Assembly (NCBI RefSeq): GCF_000218625.1
Contig: NC_015672.1
Span: 558,001-622,000, forward strand
DNA length: 64,000 bases
Direction of reading: 5' to 3'
Source of the DNA: Flexistipes sinusarabici DSM 4947
Lineage (GTDB): Bacteria > Chrysiogenota > Deferribacteres > Deferribacterales > Flexistipitaceae
Shown here: one piece after another, positions 9,846-16,488 of the stretch
How the letters are laid out: every line of letters starts with the position of its first letter
Position numbering within the stretch: position 1 is the first letter of the stretch
Notes under the pieces: generated by a model
What the model was told of the DNA's origin: nothing
What the model saw: only the letters and a program-made list of their open reading frames with translations
The model's database searches: none
Program-made: the position numbers and the translations under genes

Positions 9846-10640
9846 ATGAGTGAAAAAAAGACTTTAAATGTTAGCACGCTGTCAAAAAGTTTCGATGACG
9901 TCAGCTCATTAATGCAGGGAATTATTGATACTCCACCCGAGAAAATTAAAACGAAGGAACTGAAGCATTGTATCTCGGCATTGGAAAATTTTAAAAAATA
10001 TACAGACCTTCTGATGGATAGCTGTGCATATAAAAATAAAAGCACTATAAACAGCGGTATTGAAAAATATCTGCCGGATTTGAATAATTTGCAGTTGGAG
10101 CTTGAAGTTTACTATGGCGGTAAAAACATAAAAAATCTTTCACAGATAAAACAACTGGCTGAAAAAATTTATGACGACTATTTATTGAAAGTTAAATATG
10201 AGTTGATTCCCTATATTAACAGCAGAATGTTTTCAAGAAAACTTATCACAGGTGTTAGGATTATTGATGCACAGCATAAAGCTTTATTCACTTTTATGGA
10301 TAAATTTGTTTCAAGAGTAATCAATGAATCATCAAATGAAGATTTGGAAAAGGTACAACGGTTTCTGATTAAGTATACCCATATACATTTTAATGAAGAA
10401 GAAAAATTGATGGAAGAATCGGGATATCCGCGTAAAAGGGCTCACAAGAGCGAGCACAAAGATTTTGTTGATATGATAGAAAAAATTGATCGTTTCAAAG
10501 AAGGCGGAAATGAGAGCTCGATTGATGAAATCCTGCGGTATATATATTTTGATTTAAATCAGTGGTTTATTAATCACATTCTTAAATCCGACAGGGACTT
10601 TGTGGAATTTCATAAAAATCGTATGGGTGATGAGGATTAA
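9846..10640 (+). CDS. Bacteriohemerythrin-domain protein
   Basis: A 264-residue protein. The first about 130 residues are helical and of no recognised family. The C-terminal part (about 140-260) is a hemerythrin domain binding a di-iron centre: GVRIIDAQHKALF, HIHFNEEEKLMEE, HKSEHKDF and NHILKSDRDF supply the expected His, Glu and Asp ligands. Such proteins bind oxygen, often as sensors or scavengers in anaerobes and microaerophiles. No methyl-accepting or cyclase domain is attached. It stands alone, preceded by an AT-rich leader. Confidence 0.88.
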   Translation: MSEKKTLNVSTLSKSFDDVSSLMQGIIDTPPEKIKTKELKHCISALENFKKYTDLLMDSCAYKNKSTINSGIEKYLPDLNNLQLELEVYYGGKNIKNLSQIKQLAEKIYDDYLLKVKYELIPYINSRMFSRKLITGVRIIDAQHKALFTFMDKFVSRVINESSNEDLEKVQRFLIKYTHIHFNEEEKLMEESGYPRKRAHKSEHKDFVDMIEKIDRFKEGGNESSIDEILRYIYFDLNQWFINHILKSDRDFVEFHKNRMGDED

Positions 10641-10938
10641 TTAAAAAAAGCTTTAGTTTAGAGCTTACAATAATTAAATCAAGCTTCACACTTCCACTGT
10701 TTTCACGTCTTTGTTTACCCTGTTAAATATCAGCTTCGCTGATTGCCTGTGGCTAGTACCAGTCTTTTAGACTGGTAAGTATGTTTAACATTCTATATGT
10801 TCGCTAAAAGCGAATGCTAGACAAAACGGAGTGCGGAACTTGAAATTAAACTTTAAATCTTAAGCATATCTAATAACCTCTAAATATTCCACTTTGCATT
10901 TTTGGAAAATATTTTTATTTTTGCACAATAAATGGAAC
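10641..10938. other. Intergenic region with REP-like hairpins and repeat copy B
   Basis: No gene seen. 10729-10745 holds a short palindrome (ATCAGC TTC GCTGAT) that recurs near 44620. 10752-10842 is the inverted copy of the 3340-3421 repeat and contains ACCAGTCTTTTAGACTGGT, a palindrome that recurs in variant form at about 16461-16480 next to an IS. The remainder is AT-rich. Confidence 0.6.
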
Positions 10939-10967
10939 TTGATTAAAAATGTTATAAATTGTACAAT
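10939..10967 (+). promoter_or_regulatory. Candidate sigma-70 promoter of the hydrogenase/c-di-GMP operon
   Basis: TTGATT (10939-10944) and TACAAT (10962-10967) are separated by 17 bases, in an AT-rich stretch 49 bases before the large-subunit start. No sigma-54 (GG-N10-GC) element was seen here. Confidence 0.5.
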
Positions 10968-11015
10968 TTCCTTATTGTTTGAGTCATATTTTGTTTTGCC
11001 AAAAGGTAAGATTTT

Positions 11016-12452
11016 ATGTCAAAAAATTTGAAAATAGATCCTCTCACCCGCATTGAGGGGCATCTGAAAATCAGTGTGGAAGAGGAAGCCGGTACAGTCA
11101 TAGATGCGAAAGTTCATGGCGAAATGTACCGCGGTTTTGAAAAAATTCTCCATGGCAGGCACCCCTTTGACGCTGCGAGGATTACCCAGAGGGTATGCGG
11201 TATATGCCACGAAGTGCACGGGGTTGCTTCGGTAAAAGCTATTGAAAACTTGTACAATGTGGGTGTACCGTTTAACGGTCTGATTCTCAGAGATTTGATT
11301 CTCGGTCTGCACGTTATTACCGATCATATCATTCATTTTTATAATCTGTGTTTGCCTGACTATGTTGATTTTAATGTTATCAGTGAATATTCGGGCTCGG
11401 ACAGAAATCTCCTTAAAATAAAAGAGCTGATAACCCGTCCTTCCAATCCGTTCTTGAAAAGAAAAGAGAATGCAAAATTTATACAGGATAGGGATTTGTG
11501 TATCAGAATGGTTCGTAATTATTTTAAAGCCATTGATGTGAGGTCTAAAGCCGCTTCCGGGCTTGCAATACTCGGAGCAAAAACACCTTTTTGCCAGGCG
11601 TTGCTGCCGGGCGGTATCACAACCGATGTTACACTGGATTCTTTGTATAAATATCATAAGGTATTAGAAGAAACCGCTGATTTTGTGATTCAGGATTATT
11701 ACGGTGATGTGCAGATATTGTGCGAATATTTTCCGGAATATTTTAATATCGGCTCAACTTACGATCGTTTTTTCGGTTATGAATCACTGTCAATGAATGG
11801 TGAGCCGCTTTTTAAAGAGGGTGTTTTACATGGCAGCAAGCTGTATCCTCTGGATTATAGCAAAATAAGTGAAAGACTCGTCTCCTCATATTATGATGAT
11901 GAAGGAAAACCGCATTATGGTAAAAACAATGCTTATTCGTGGATAAAGGCGCCGAGATATGACGGGCTTCCTATGGAGACCGGCCCTATCGCAAGGCTGT
12001 TGATAAACCACAATAAAACAATCTCGGCCGAAACTGCAAAATATTATAAAGGTGATATTCTTTCTTCAACAATGTCCAGATTGCTGGCAAGAGTTGTGGA
12101 ATGTAAAATAATTTTGAGGTATTTGTTTGATCTGGTTTCAAAATACAGACCCGGTGATGATAATATCATAACTGTGGATCCTAACCAAAAAATTACAGGT
12201 TCAGCTTTTGCAACCTCAATAGCTGCCAGAGGGGATCTGATGCATAAAATTTCAACGGTGGATGGCAGGATTGATGAGTATAATATGGTAATGCCCTCCA
12301 CATGGAATTTCGGGCCTTCTACGGGGAATTTGAAAGGTATTGTGGAAAAAGCACTTATCGGTGTAAAATCTTCCGATGAAGCCTCAATAAAGTTGCATAC
12401 GGAAAGGATTGTTAGGAGTTTTGATCCGTGTACGGCATGCTCAATACATTAG
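11016..12452 (+). CDS. NiFe hydrogenase large subunit without C-terminal extension
   Basis: A 478-residue catalytic subunit. The N terminus KIDPLTRIEGHL and the L1 motif RVCGICHEVH (about residues 63-72) supply two Ni ligands; the L2 motif DPCTACSIH supplies the other two. The family oxidises or produces H2 at a NiFe(CN)2CO site. The GEMYRGFEKILHGRHP region resembles group 1 enzymes. Oddly, the protein stops directly after the L2 histidine, at TAG 12450-12452, so there is no peptide for a HyaD/HybD-type protease to remove. That is known for regulatory (HoxC/HupV) subunits. It precedes the small subunit, the reverse of the usual order. No hyp maturation genes are in the window. Confidence 0.95.
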   Translation: MSKNLKIDPLTRIEGHLKISVEEEAGTVIDAKVHGEMYRGFEKILHGRHPFDAARITQRVCGICHEVHGVASVKAIENLYNVGVPFNGLILRDLILGLHVITDHIIHFYNLCLPDYVDFNVISEYSGSDRNLLKIKELITRPSNPFLKRKENAKFIQDRDLCIRMVRNYFKAIDVRSKAASGLAILGAKTPFCQALLPGGITTDVTLDSLYKYHKVLEETADFVIQDYYGDVQILCEYFPEYFNIGSTYDRFFGYESLSMNGEPLFKEGVLHGSKLYPLDYSKISERLVSSYYDDEGKPHYGKNNAYSWIKAPRYDGLPMETGPIARLLINHNKTISAETAKYYKGDILSSTMSRLLARVVECKIILRYLFDLVSKYRPGDDNIITVDPNQKITGSAFATSIAARGDLMHKISTVDGRIDEYNMVMPSTWNFGPSTGNLKGIVEKALIGVKSSDEASIKLHTERIVRSFDPCTACSIH

Positions 12453-12459
12453 GTGGCTT

Positions 12460-13425
12460 ATGTTAACAAGAAGGCAGCTGCTGAAACACAGTGCAAAACT
12501 TTCCATGCTATTGTTCGGCAGTAAAGCTTTTGCAGCTGATATTTTTGACGGCTTTATCAGGCTTAAAGAGGAAAGAGTAAAAGTCATTTTTATTCAGGGG
12601 CAGGTTTGTGCCGGTTGTTCAATTTCCATGATGTATGGCAATGAAACGAACTTTCTGCAGTTTATCAGGCATATTATTTCTCTTCAGGTGCATCCCATGC
12701 TTTCCTTTGAAAGTTCGGATGATTACCTCGAAATGCTTGAAAAAACTGTAAAAAACGGTGACTATATTCTTGTCTTTGAAGGAAGCATTCCAATGGGTAT
12801 TCCCTATGCATGCAATATAGGGGGGATACCTTTAAAAAAATTTATAAAACCTGCGGTTAAGAATGCTTCTATAATTGTGGCTTCCGGCACATGCTCTTCA
12901 CACGGCGGTATACCTGCAGCTGTGAATAATGAAACCGGAGCCGTATCCCTTATAGAATACCTTGATATGCAGAATATTCACAAACCGTATTTACGTATTC
13001 CCGGTTGTCCCGTACACCCTGACTGGCTTATGGGCAGTATCTCCTATGTTGCATCCACCGGGGAAATTCCAAAAGTAACGGAACTGAAAACGCCGAAAAC
13101 ATATTATAAAGACACTATTCATAACCATTGCAATAGGTTTCAGCATTTCAGCCAGGACTTATACTTATCTGATTATGCACAGGATAAAACCAACTGTCTC
13201 CTTAAAAAAGGCTGCCGGGGCCCTGTCACATATTCAGACTGCCCGATTCGAAACTGGAACGGCAATACGAATTTTTGTATTAAAAGTAATGCCCCCTGTG
13301 TGGGATGTGTTCACCCGGACTGGCCGTTTGAGAGTGATATGTATATTACTGCTGAAAAGGCGGAGGATATCACCTGGTGGGAAATGCAGGAAAAAGTGAG
13401 GAACAGGGAAAAAGATAAAAAATGA
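12460..13425 (+). CDS. NiFe hydrogenase small subunit, Tat-exported
   Basis: I chose ATG 12460, preceded by AGGTGG. This gives 321 residues beginning with a twin-arginine signal (LTRRQLLKHSAK, then a hydrophobic run to FAADIF), so the enzyme is predicted to be periplasmic. Proximal cluster ligands are in QVCAGC, GTCSSHG and PGCPVHPDW. Distal and medial ligands are in HNHCNRF, NCLLKKGC, SDCPIRNW, NFC and PCVGC. All three iron-sulfur clusters therefore look intact. The C terminus (WWEMQEKVRNREKDKK) is soluble, with no membrane anchor, and no cytochrome b gene follows. The electron acceptor is then likely a soluble or neighbouring haem protein. It overlaps the next gene by 4 bases. Confidence 0.95.
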   Translation: MLTRRQLLKHSAKLSMLLFGSKAFAADIFDGFIRLKEERVKVIFIQGQVCAGCSISMMYGNETNFLQFIRHIISLQVHPMLSFESSDDYLEMLEKTVKNGDYILVFEGSIPMGIPYACNIGGIPLKKFIKPAVKNASIIVASGTCSSHGGIPAAVNNETGAVSLIEYLDMQNIHKPYLRIPGCPVHPDWLMGSISYVASTGEIPKVTELKTPKTYYKDTIHNHCNRFQHFSQDLYLSDYAQDKTNCLLKKGCRGPVTYSDCPIRNWNGNTNFCIKSNAPCVGCVHPDWPFESDMYITAEKAEDITWWEMQEKVRNREKDKK

Positions 13426-16088
13426 TGAAGCGGATAAAAAAATTTTTCAGACAACTTTCCGTTGATTTGCATTTTCTTGTACCTGTGACATTAATAGTCT
13501 TTTTCTTGTGTCTCATTATAATCATTGCCAAGGACAAGATGGTAAGTGATGTGGAAAGCTCTTTCAACCGTTATATGGGTTATCTGAAAGATACGGTTTT
13601 TTTATCAACTTATGATTCCCTGAAAAAGGGAAATATGAAAGTTTTTGAAGACATATTGACACAAATAGGTACATATGAGCAGGTGAAGGAATTTTCGCTT
13701 ATAAATAAAAACGGCAAAGTTGTGTACTCCACAAACAAGAAATTTTTGAAAACCAAAGATCCTAAAGCGGCAGAAATCAGCAAACCTTTGACGGAAGCCG
13801 GACGTGATAAAATTACTTATTATTTTCCTGTAGTTACAGTGGATTACTGTACCCGGTGTCACAGGCAGTGGGAAAGCGGTGAAATAAACTCGGTGTACAG
13901 GATTTCGTTAAATAATTCTTCTTTTGTCAATTTGGTGAATATTTCAAGTTTTTCCAATAAAGCTATTTTTATCGGCGGATTCATTGCCGTTCTTCTTATT
14001 TATATTCTTTATTCATATATTAAGCAGCTGAGATTCAGTGAAATTATTTCCGAAAGTGAAAAGAAATACAGGTCATTGTTTGAAAATATTATGGATGTTC
14101 AGTTCTGTATCAATGAAAAAGGTGAACTTATTCTTATAAGTCCTTCCGGTGTTGGTTTACTTAACTACAGAGATAAAAATGAAATTCTTTATAAGAACTT
14201 TTCTTCTAAACTTCTGTATGACGAACAAGCTTATCAGGATTTGGTAAAAAAAGTTTATTCCGAAAAGGAAGTTTACGGCTATGAGATGATTCTTAAGAAA
14301 AAGAATGGAGAACCGTTAATTGCCGAGGCCAATATGCGTCTTGTGGAAAAGGGCGGAGAAAAGATTATAGAAGGTATTTTCAGAGATATCACTGAGCGTA
14401 AAAACAATGAGAAACAGCTTCAGCTTCTTGCGAGTGTATTTGAAAATACCATAGAATCAATTATGATTGTCAGTTCTGACGGAAAAATTCAAAAAATTAA
14501 CCAAGCTTTTCTTGATTCCACGGGTTATTCCGAAGAAGAGATTGTGGATTTCTCACCTTTGGAAATTCAACCGTTTAATGAAAACAGAAGATATCTGTTA
14601 AAAGTGGCGGCTGAAGTGAGAAAAAATGACAGATGGAAAGGAGAGATATGGTGCCGTAAAAAAACCGGTGAAATCTTCCCCCAATGGATGTCGGTGAGTG
14701 TATTGAAAGATGATAGCGGCAATGTGATGAATTATATTCTACTTCTGCATGATATAACTTCCCTGAAAAAAAGTGAAGAAGAACTGAGGCATCAGGCGAC
14801 CCACGATATGCTCACAGGTCTTCCCAACAGACAGCTGTTTGAAGACAGATTAAAAAGGGCGGTTGCTCATCATGAAAGATACGGCGGCAAGTTTGCACTT
14901 CTTTTCATAGATCTGGATAACTTTAAAAATATTAACGACACACTGGGACATAAAATCGGTGATCTTTTACTTGTAAAGGCGGGTGAAACCCTGCTGGAAT
15001 GCTGCAGAGAATCGGATACCGTAGCCAGGCTGGGTGGTGATGAGTTTACCATTATTTTGAATGATATCGAAGATGAAAACGGCATTGTTGCTGTTACAGA
15101 AAAGATATTAAAGGCCGTTGCTTCTGCAAAAAAAGTCGGGGGACATGAGGTGTATACAAGTGCAAGTATCGGAATAGCCGTTTACCCTGCAGACGGCAGG
15201 AATTCTGTATCCTTAATAAAAAATGCGGACATGGCTATGTACAAAGCAAAAGAGCTGGGAGCCAATGATTATTATTTTTACAACAGCGATCTTAAAGTCA
15301 GGCTGGAAAGAAAGATTTCTCTTACTACAAAACTGGCCAAGGCTCTGGAAGAAAATGATATAAAAGTGTATTTCCAGCCACTGATCGATTTGAAAAGTGG
15401 AAAGATAACAGGTGCCGAAGCTCTGGCAAGGTGGCAGACGGATACATCCCGTTTTATACGCCCGGATGAATTTATAGAAGCGGCTGAAGAAAGCGGACTG
15501 ATAGGTACTCTGGGAGATCATGTGCTGAATAAAAGTTGTGAGAATTTGAGAAAATGGCACGATGCAGGTTTTGAAAATTTGACAATGTCGGTAAACCTGT
15601 CGGTGAAACAGATGAACGATCAGAATCTTGTGACAAAAACCAAGAATGCCTTGAAAAAATATTCGCTGAAACCAACTGATCTTGTTTATGAGATTACGGA
15701 AAATGTGGCAATGAAGGATTTTGATGCTACGCTTGCTCTTTTTAAAGAATTGAGCGGACTTGGTGTAAAAATATCTATGGATGATTTCGGTACCGGCTAT
15801 TCCTCTCTTGCCTATCTGAAACAATTTCCATTGAATTCTATAAAGATAGACAAGGTATTTTTGCAGAATATTCCTGAAAATGAAAAGGATAATAACCTTA
15901 TAAAGGGTATAGTTTGGATGGCTAAAAGTTTGGGATTGAATGTTGTTGCAGAAGGAGTGGAAAATAAATTCCAATCCGAGTTCCTGCGGGAAATCGGATG
16001 CAACGGGTGCCAGGGGTATTATTACAGCCGGCCTCTACCGGAAGATGAGTTTTTTGACTATTTAAAGGCCGTAAGGCGTGACGAGTGA
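13422..16088 (+). CDS. Membrane GGDEF-EAL c-di-GMP enzyme with periplasmic CxxCH haem sensor
   Basis: An 888-residue protein. TM1 is at about 17-37 and TM2 at about 180-201, enclosing a periplasmic domain of about 140 residues that carries CTRCH (143-147), a c-type haem site, just after YYFPVVTVDY. Two PAS domains follow (about 215-330 and 335-455). The GGDEF domain has an intact LGGDEF (about 536) and an RESD inhibitory site five residues upstream. The EAL domain has AEALAR (about 663), DDFGTGYSS, EGVE and QGYYYSRPL. Both synthesis and hydrolysis of c-di-GMP look possible. The ATGA overlap with the hydrogenase small subunit shows translational coupling, so haem reduction by the hydrogenase may be the input (inference). 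Confidence 0.93.
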   Translation: MMKRIKKFFRQLSVDLHFLVPVTLIVFFLCLIIIIAKDKMVSDVESSFNRYMGYLKDTVFLSTYDSLKKGNMKVFEDILTQIGTYEQVKEFSLINKNGKVVYSTNKKFLKTKDPKAAEISKPLTEAGRDKITYYFPVVTVDYCTRCHRQWESGEINSVYRISLNNSSFVNLVNISSFSNKAIFIGGFIAVLLIYILYSYIKQLRFSEIISESEKKYRSLFENIMDVQFCINEKGELILISPSGVGLLNYRDKNEILYKNFSSKLLYDEQAYQDLVKKVYSEKEVYGYEMILKKKNGEPLIAEANMRLVEKGGEKIIEGIFRDITERKNNEKQLQLLASVFENTIESIMIVSSDGKIQKINQAFLDSTGYSEEEIVDFSPLEIQPFNENRRYLLKVAAEVRKNDRWKGEIWCRKKTGEIFPQWMSVSVLKDDSGNVMNYILLLHDITSLKKSEEELRHQATHDMLTGLPNRQLFEDRLKRAVAHHERYGGKFALLFIDLDNFKNINDTLGHKIGDLLLVKAGETLLECCRESDTVARLGGDEFTIILNDIEDENGIVAVTEKILKAVASAKKVGGHEVYTSASIGIAVYPADGRNSVSLIKNADMAMYKAKELGANDYYFYNSDLKVRLERKISLTTKLAKALEENDIKVYFQPLIDLKSGKITGAEALARWQTDTSRFIRPDEFIEAAEESGLIGTLGDHVLNKSCENLRKWHDAGFENLTMSVNLSVKQMNDQNLVTKTKNALKKYSLKPTDLVYEITENVAMKDFDATLALFKELSGLGVKISMDDFGTGYSSLAYLKQFPLNSIKIDKVFLQNIPENEKDNNLIKGIVWMAKSLGLNVVAEGVENKFQSEFLREIGCNGCQGYYYSRPLPEDEFFDYLKAVRRDE

Positions 16089-16488
16089 GGTAGATAGATG
16101 GTGAAGTGGGGAAGTAGGTAGAGGTAAAGGAAAAGACGTGAACGTGAGCGTGAGCGTGAGAGCAAGTTGAACTGGTTGATGGGGCCTGCCCCGTGAAATG
16201 TGAAAGCCTATTTCACCGGGGTTGAAATGATATAATAAACATATATACGGGTATACTTGTTCAGATATCTGGCGCCCTTCCATTTTTTTAATAGCTATGC
16301 CAATAAGGGGATTTTCACTCATATTCGAGATCGAAACTCGTAACTACTGTTAGTAACCGCCTATACCCTATTCTCATAATTTCTTTCATTAGCAAATATT
16401 TACTCAGTTACAACTTTTATCCACAGGGTATGATCGGTAACTAACAGTACGTTCCTCTAGCACCAGCCCTTTAGGCTGGTAAATATGT
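16089..16488. other. Intergenic region with low-complexity runs and a long inverted repeat
   Basis: No credible gene. 16140-16162 is a short GTGAGC tandem repeat. 16347-16369 and 16425-16447 are imperfect inverted copies (about 19 of 23 bases) that could form a hairpin with a 55-base loop. 16459-16488 is a variant of the CTAG-ACCAG palindrome block seen at 10752-10785, cut by the IS5-like element starting at 16489. Confidence 0.6.

Follow-up and report, generated by a model that had tools for sequence, protein, structure and literature searches.

A peptide-less, Tat-type [NiFe]-hydrogenase encoded beside a heme-Cache receptor in Flexistipes sinusarabici points to an undescribed form of bacterial H2 sensing

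Described hydrogenases and heme receptors closest to the locus

The sensory [NiFe]-hydrogenases of group 2b (HoxBC/HupUV) are cytosolic (PMC6978683, PMC5665086). Natural large subunits without a C-terminal peptide, as listed in the papers surveyed, are only those of groups 2b, 2d, 4c and 4e (PMC12134894) and 4g (PMC7294309), with none in group 1. Peptide-free maturation works in RH and in an engineered, cut HoxG, both of which receive the cofactor; engineered removal of the peptide left Hyd-2 and SH nickel-free (PMC7294309). HydDB lists group 2c as "diguanylate cyclase-linked (putative)" and [FeFe] group C2 as "chemotactic (putative)" (PMC5037454). For group 2c the L2 consensus is given as SFDxCLVCTVH, and group 2 enzymes are placed in the cytosol (PMC4853749).

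Among receptors with a c-type heme in a Cache or PAS domain, GSU0935 holds one heme through His144 and Met60, the Met being thought to leave on oxidation, and two Geobacter heme domains have potentials of -156 and -251 mV (PMC8396549). A 2026 preprint places the CxxCH of sCache_heme in a short helix preceding the last strand and assigns signalling-linked heme-Cache domains to NO sensing; the word hydrogenase is absent from its available text (PMC12889525). No dedicated electron donor for c-heme Cache/PAS receptors is described in the literature surveyed. In these mostly open-access papers, neither a hydrogenase linked with a heme-Cache receptor nor a sensory [NiFe]-hydrogenase that is exported was found.

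We analysed a stretch of 64,000 nucleotides from F. sinusarabici DSM 4947 (contig NC_015672.1, positions 558,001 to 622,000; here called the window), which carries genes for a hydrogenase large subunit, a small subunit and a membrane receptor in that order. The pair resembles group 2b in lacking a C-terminal peptide, in having two subunits beside a signalling gene and in the Ala before the canopy Arg, but the 2b enzymes are cytosolic and distant in the large-subunit tree, whereas the window enzyme has a Tat signal and a partner with a predicted periplasmic heme. With HydDB group 2c it shares a link to c-di-GMP enzymes. It departs from group 2c as described, which is cytosolic with L2 SFDxCLVCTVH, whereas the window enzyme has SFDPCTACSIH and a Tat signal and its clade is mostly chemoreceptor-linked. 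The periplasmic [NiFe] and [NiFeSe] enzymes of group 1 (HysAB type) are nearest by sequence and tree and share the Tat-type small subunit, but they carry a peptide (60/60 of the next-nearest loci) and usually lie near a protease gene, and the window enzyme has neither. The receptor is like the c-heme Cache/PAS receptors (GSU0582, GSU0935, DcrA and the Tll0287 family) in its periplasmic Cache-like fold with a CxxCH helix, its candidate His/Met ligation and its MCP, kinase or GGDEF outputs; it differs in that it has no sequence match to PF11845 or to PDB members and in that a hydrogenase is present in the operon. The [FeFe] enzymes of group C2 share a link between hydrogenase and chemoreceptor, but belong to an unrelated enzyme class.

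The hydrogenase subunits and their maturation

A sequence-only reading of the window had proposed that the large subunit of an exported hydrogenase ends exactly at the L2 histidine, DPCTACSIH being followed by TAG, and this was confirmed in the frame of 11016-12452. The features of the large subunit are as follows.

11016..12452, + strand: [NiFe]-hydrogenase large subunit, 478 aa, without C-terminal peptide, the L2 His being the last residue (PF00374, E 5.3e-94; alignment of 17)
11190..11222, + strand: L1 motif RVCGICHEVHG (Cys61, Cys64; Cys invariant in 25/25 peptide-less rows)
12417..12452, + strand: L2 motif and stop, SFDPCTACSIH-TAG (read from the sequence, in frame of ORF 11016-12452)

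The best PDB relatives of this subunit are periplasmic NiFeSe large subunits. Selenocysteine at L2, as found in NiFeSe enzymes, was ruled out: the L2 codons specify plain Cys, and the stop lies 3' of the His. The metal-binding residues of L1 and L2 (Cys61, 64, 472 and 475) and the canopy Arg405 are intact in 25/25 peptide-less rows, L090, with 10% of alignment columns filled, being left out of these column counts. The residue preceding the canopy Arg is Ala, Gly or Ser in 20/20 peptide-less loci and Thr in the distant members G001-G003; in the peptide-bearing loci it is mostly Pro (56 of 60, with 54 recognised by pattern and L080 and L083 by eye). The same position is Ala in HoxC and in a 2d-like subunit and Pro in HoxG. 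A residue other than Pro before the canopy Arg may be a mark of sensory enzymes, or it may be an old state.

The missing peptide extends well beyond this strain. In 50 genomes of the phylum, 17 loci in 13 genomes fall in the window's clade (at least 46% identity), and 17/17 end at the L2 His. Wider relatives, from named genomes, were taken as the best 80 of 152 confirmed; all 20 at 41% identity or more end at the His, whereas an extension is present in each of the 60 whose identity is 36% or lower. Ten of these 20 were already in the phylum set, as judged from the lengths of their contigs, so that 10 from other lineages were added; with the three distant loci (G001-G003) this makes 30 distinct loci, every one of which ends at the L2 His. 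A frameshift that other strains would lack, restoring a normal extension, had been named as the result that would overturn the reading; it was looked for and not found in any of the 30, among them a same-genus copy (G016, 94% identical). In the 21 peptide-less loci checked, the stop codon was TAA in 8, TGA in 7 and TAG in 6, and reading through it gave unrelated peptides. Read-through was rejected because three different stop codons are used and no downstream peptide is conserved.

The small subunit was said in the same reading to carry a Tat signal, and it does.

12460..13425, + strand: hydrogenase small subunit, 321 aa, with Fe-S chain and without C-terminal membrane helix (PF01058, PF14720 and TIGR00391 over cut-off; Cys conservation)
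12460..12537, + strand: twin-arginine (Tat) signal region, TRRQLLK...AFA (33/33 small subunits have a twin Arg close to the N-terminus)

Its start was placed at ATG 12460, 7 nt after the large subunit, the listed TTG 12409 overlapping the large subunit; the N-terminus read from this ATG is MLTRRQLLKHSAKLSMLLFGSKAFAAD, a twin-arginine signal. The twin Arg is present in all 33 small-subunit rows, which count the window twice and include two duplicates, and across these rows the 12 cluster Cys are largely conserved. In the L069-L075 group (6/33 rows), Asp replaces the second Cys of the proximal-cluster CxxC. The small subunit of G017 (L043) has a C-terminus unlike all others.

The sequence-only reading had also raised an unusual maturation route and called for a search for hyp genes and a protease. 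The genome (2,526,590 bases) encodes three large subunits by PF00374, that of the window and two with C-terminal extensions, VHVYDSKGDMKSKVKVL and VHAVDPDGGDIVKVKVL. HypD is present, and the only HycI-type proteases are two, one beside each of the peptide-bearing hydrogenases. With no peptide in 30/30 loci and both proteases of the genome placed beside the other two enzymes, an unusual route gains support. Examination of the flanks revealed a protease near 1 of the 30 peptide-less loci (0/17, 1/10 and 0/3 for the phylum, other-lineage and distant sets), compared with 47/60 peptide-bearing loci; in the single case, L070, the protease lies within an opposite-strand hyp block. Across 16 genomes, no PF01750 match on the contig of a peptide-less subunit was closer than about 85 kb (G017). 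Proteases are present in all 16 cassette genomes tested, with 33 matches; other hydrogenases are present there too, and for this reason the protease need of the peptide-less subunit cannot be judged in them. In two of the 10 other-lineage genomes (G054 and G057, both MAGs of uncertain completeness), the peptide-less subunit is the only strong PF00374 match and no protease was found. HypD is present in G057 and absent in G054, which may therefore be incomplete.

In two genomes (G025 and G028; L179 3063-5552 and L181 3020-5509) a further hydrogenase pair was found that has no twin-Arg signal. It lies among response-regulator and kinase-like genes, and its L2 motif SFDPCLVCAVH is followed by the extension RLDSGKKIFIC. 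Judged by these features, it looks like a sensory enzyme of the cytosol that has kept its peptide, and so is the opposite of the cassette.

A comparison with HoxC and group 1 subunits had likewise been called for. A maximum-likelihood tree was built from 59 large subunits, each truncated after L2. In it the 25 peptide-less rows form one clade (99/98), set among group 1-like rows with nine peptide-bearing rows as its sister and apart from HoxC (2b) and the 2d-like row; the tree holds 27 of the 60 peptide-bearing loci, one 2b reference and no 2c sequence, and its two outgroup rows are long branches that make the root position less sure than the clade. Membership in HoxC/HupV (group 2b) was ruled out by the tree and the Tat signal. 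Of the traits of group 1, the Tat signal is present in this clade, and the peptide with its linked protease and the respiratory cytochrome b or c partner are absent; of those of group 2b, the absence of the peptide is shared, but the cytosolic, Tat-less state and the grouping with HoxC are not. By these comparisons the clade is a separate lineage inside the exported group 1-like hydrogenases. Since this lineage is separate from group 2b, the peptide seems to have been lost a second time, together with the appearance of a sensory context.

The heme-Cache receptor and the conserved cassette

The third gene, which the sequence-only reading had not mentioned, overlaps the small-subunit gene by 4 nt and encodes a signalling protein of the membrane, whose periplasmic Cache domain contains a CxxCH. 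As the constant neighbour of the hydrogenase, it supports the sensory role that the reading had suggested.

13422..16088, + strand: membrane receptor, 888 aa, ordered TM, heme-Cache, TM, PAS, PAS, GGDEF, EAL (Pfam; TM and CxxCH positions)
13554..13940, + strand: periplasmic heme-Cache sensor domain, about aa 45-173 (model pLDDT 87; Cache fold, including heme protein Tll0287)
13635..13637, + strand: Met72, candidate distal heme ligand (Met in 35/38 rows; role suggested by GSU0935)
13848..13862, + strand: c-heme motif CTRCH, aa 143-147 (CxxCH in 38/38 rows; cytochrome c assembly genes in the genome)
14796..15266, + strand: GGDEF domain with intact GGDEF motif (PF00990, E 3.2e-50)
15330..16034, + strand: EAL domain with EAL and DDFGTG motifs (PF00563, E 5.9e-71)

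In all 38 sensor rows, which include 10 duplicates, the CxxCH lies between two predicted membrane helices, so the heme and the exported enzyme would share a compartment. A covalent c-type heme on the sensor domain is predicted from this motif. Met72 is replaced only in G001-G003, by Arg; the receptors of these distant members (L051-L053) have two CxxCH motifs in the periplasmic domain. The model of the sensor domain, built from a 16-row alignment (pLDDT 87), has a Cache fold with the CxxCH in a short helix (141-146) preceding the last strand (155-164). Its best single-domain matches are Cache domains of the WalK type (4ywz, Z 11.1, 2.5 A over 127); it also matches the heme-Cache protein Tll0287 (Z 9.0, 2.6 A over 111) and, by Foldseek, the heme chemoreceptor domains of GSU0582 (E 2.5e-3) and GSU0935 (E 3.3e-3). 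For the window sensor domain, PF11845 (sCache_heme) did not appear among the Pfam matches with E values up to 1, and a sequence-level search of the PDB with the sensor matched no heme-domain members. Assignment of the sensor to PF11845 by sequence was thus unsupported, and its resemblance to sCache_heme is one of fold only.

After the small subunit, 28 of the 30 peptide-less loci have a gene for the CxxCH sensor (profile search, E 6e-14 or better); in the remaining two the contigs stop 351 and 469 nt past the large subunit. The domain was found in 0/60 next-nearest peptide-bearing stretches, at least 8 of which continue for less than 1.2 kb beyond the right end of the large subunit. The outputs vary. 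Among the 28 receptors, assigned by Pfam for 15 third genes and by motifs in the translations for the other 13, 22 are MCPs, 3 are PAS-histidine kinases (L064, L065 and L067) and 3 have GGDEF or GGDEF-EAL outputs (the window, G016 and G018:C23). A constant input with exchangeable outputs is the look of a sensor cassette. F. sinusarabici is described as non-motile and without cheB, cheR, cheV and cheW (PMC3236037), which fits a c-di-GMP output instead of an MCP. Because all peptide-less loci share one ancestor, the co-occurrence of missing peptide and sensor is deep conservation and not repeated independent evidence.

Searched against the 50 phylum genomes, the sensor profile was found at 21 places (E 1e-10 or better): 18 cassettes (the 17 and that of G002) and 3 receptors without a hydrogenase. 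One of the latter, G019:C5 (L143 6628-9306), is a GGDEF-EAL receptor of 892 aa. It shares the heme-Cache domain (E 1.5e-66) and adjoins pyruvate kinase, at a locus where G018:C23 has the full cassette. Here the enzyme half was lost or gained; the receptor can outlive or precede the hydrogenase, or use another copy. In G018:C23 (L049 6367-8283 and downstream) the GGDEF (638 aa) and EAL (243 aa) parts are in separate ORFs, where G019 has a single 892-aa ORF; either the gene or its assembly is broken here. Several of the MAGs come from one isolate series (BM numbers), and cross-binning is possible. In G017 (L043 5533-6954) a transposase ORF lies between the small subunit and the MCP gene. In the window, a gene for a hemerythrin-domain protein (9846-10640) precedes the cassette in the same orientation at a distance of 375 nt, and two tandem identical 376-aa transposase ORFs (16520-17650 and 17939-19069) lie just downstream. 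A promoter and terminator scan of 10500-16600 gave nothing usable above shuffles.

Hydrogen sensing and competing explanations

We hypothesize that the cassette is a periplasmic H2 sensor, in which the hydrogenase passes electrons from H2 to the heme-Cache receptor and the protease checkpoint is dispensed with, and we hold this to be probable. Maturation of the heterodimer would rely on the general Hyp machinery and involve neither a C-terminal peptide nor its protease, and the small-subunit signal would direct Tat export of the pair. In the periplasm the enzyme would oxidise H2, and the electrons would run through the Fe-S chain directly to the Cache c-heme of the co-encoded receptor. H2 is a reductant strong enough for hemes of the -156/-251 mV kind, and we infer that the hydrogenase reduces the sensor heme. 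Reduction would change the receptor output in one direction or the other, probably by a His/Met ligand switch as in the Geobacter heme receptors; the output would be c-di-GMP turnover in the window and chemotaxis or kinase activity in relatives. Counting against such a relay are the three orphan receptors, the lack of a sequence match to PF11845 or the PDB, the Arg in place of Met72 in G001-G003 and the preprint on NO sensing.

The last of these points is also compatible with signalling by contact, in which H2 turnover reshapes the hydrogenase, the hydrogenase touches the receptor, and the heme either reports NO or ambient redox or adjusts the response. For HoxBC, signalling is proposed to run through its interaction with HoxJ, and signalling-linked heme-Cache domains can bind NO (PMC12889525). 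However, the heme motif is kept in 38/38 rows while the outputs vary, and the 12 small-subunit cluster Cys are largely conserved, as expected of an electron path. We regard contact sensing as unlikely.

Less likely still, the enzyme would be a plain periplasmic uptake hydrogenase delivering electrons to soluble cytochromes, and a general redox sensor would share its operon by chance. The closest solved relatives are indeed periplasmic NiFeSe enzymes, and general heme redox chemoreceptors exist without hydrogenases, both in the literature (PMC8396549) and as the orphan receptors found here. But the receptor is the sole membrane or cytochrome partner encoded downstream of the small subunit, and the pairing persists over large divergence and through changes of output domain.

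That the large subunit is no working enzyme, being nickel-free or a pseudo-enzyme, and serves as a structural co-receptor would agree with the nickel-free Hyd-2 and SH obtained by peptide removal. RH and engineered HoxG nevertheless mature peptide-free (PMC7294309), and the metal-binding Cys and the canopy Arg are kept in 25/25 rows each, which makes a dead enzyme very improbable. A sequencing or annotation artefact, with a frameshift or read-through hiding a normal extension, found no supporting point and can practically be dismissed, given the identical end in 30/30 loci, the differing stop codons and the unconserved downstream peptide.

Returning to the electron relay, its features suggest that the peptide-less hydrogenase works like an H2 sensor and belongs to a lineage of its own. 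It appears somewhat probable that the cassette represents an undescribed class of periplasmic H2 sensor, in which a hydrogenase derived from group 1, exported without passing the peptide/protease checkpoint, would be dedicated to supplying electrons to a c-heme Cache receptor, and chemoreceptors, kinases and c-di-GMP enzymes would take H2 as their direct input. According to the checkpoint model, the peptide/protease step restrains unfinished large subunits before export, and a whole Tat-type clade without the peptide is a natural test of that model. For heme receptors, whose inputs are mostly unknown, the hydrogenase is a possible electron donor. The cassette is also a concrete candidate receptor for behaviour towards H2. 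A sulfate reducer is suspected of such behaviour, and no receptor for it is known. If the proposal is true, H2 taxis would gain a molecular receptor, and loss of the peptide would have accompanied the change from energy-converting to sensory hydrogenase more than once. The cassette points to an undescribed form of bacterial H2 sensing that feeds into movement or second-messenger signals.
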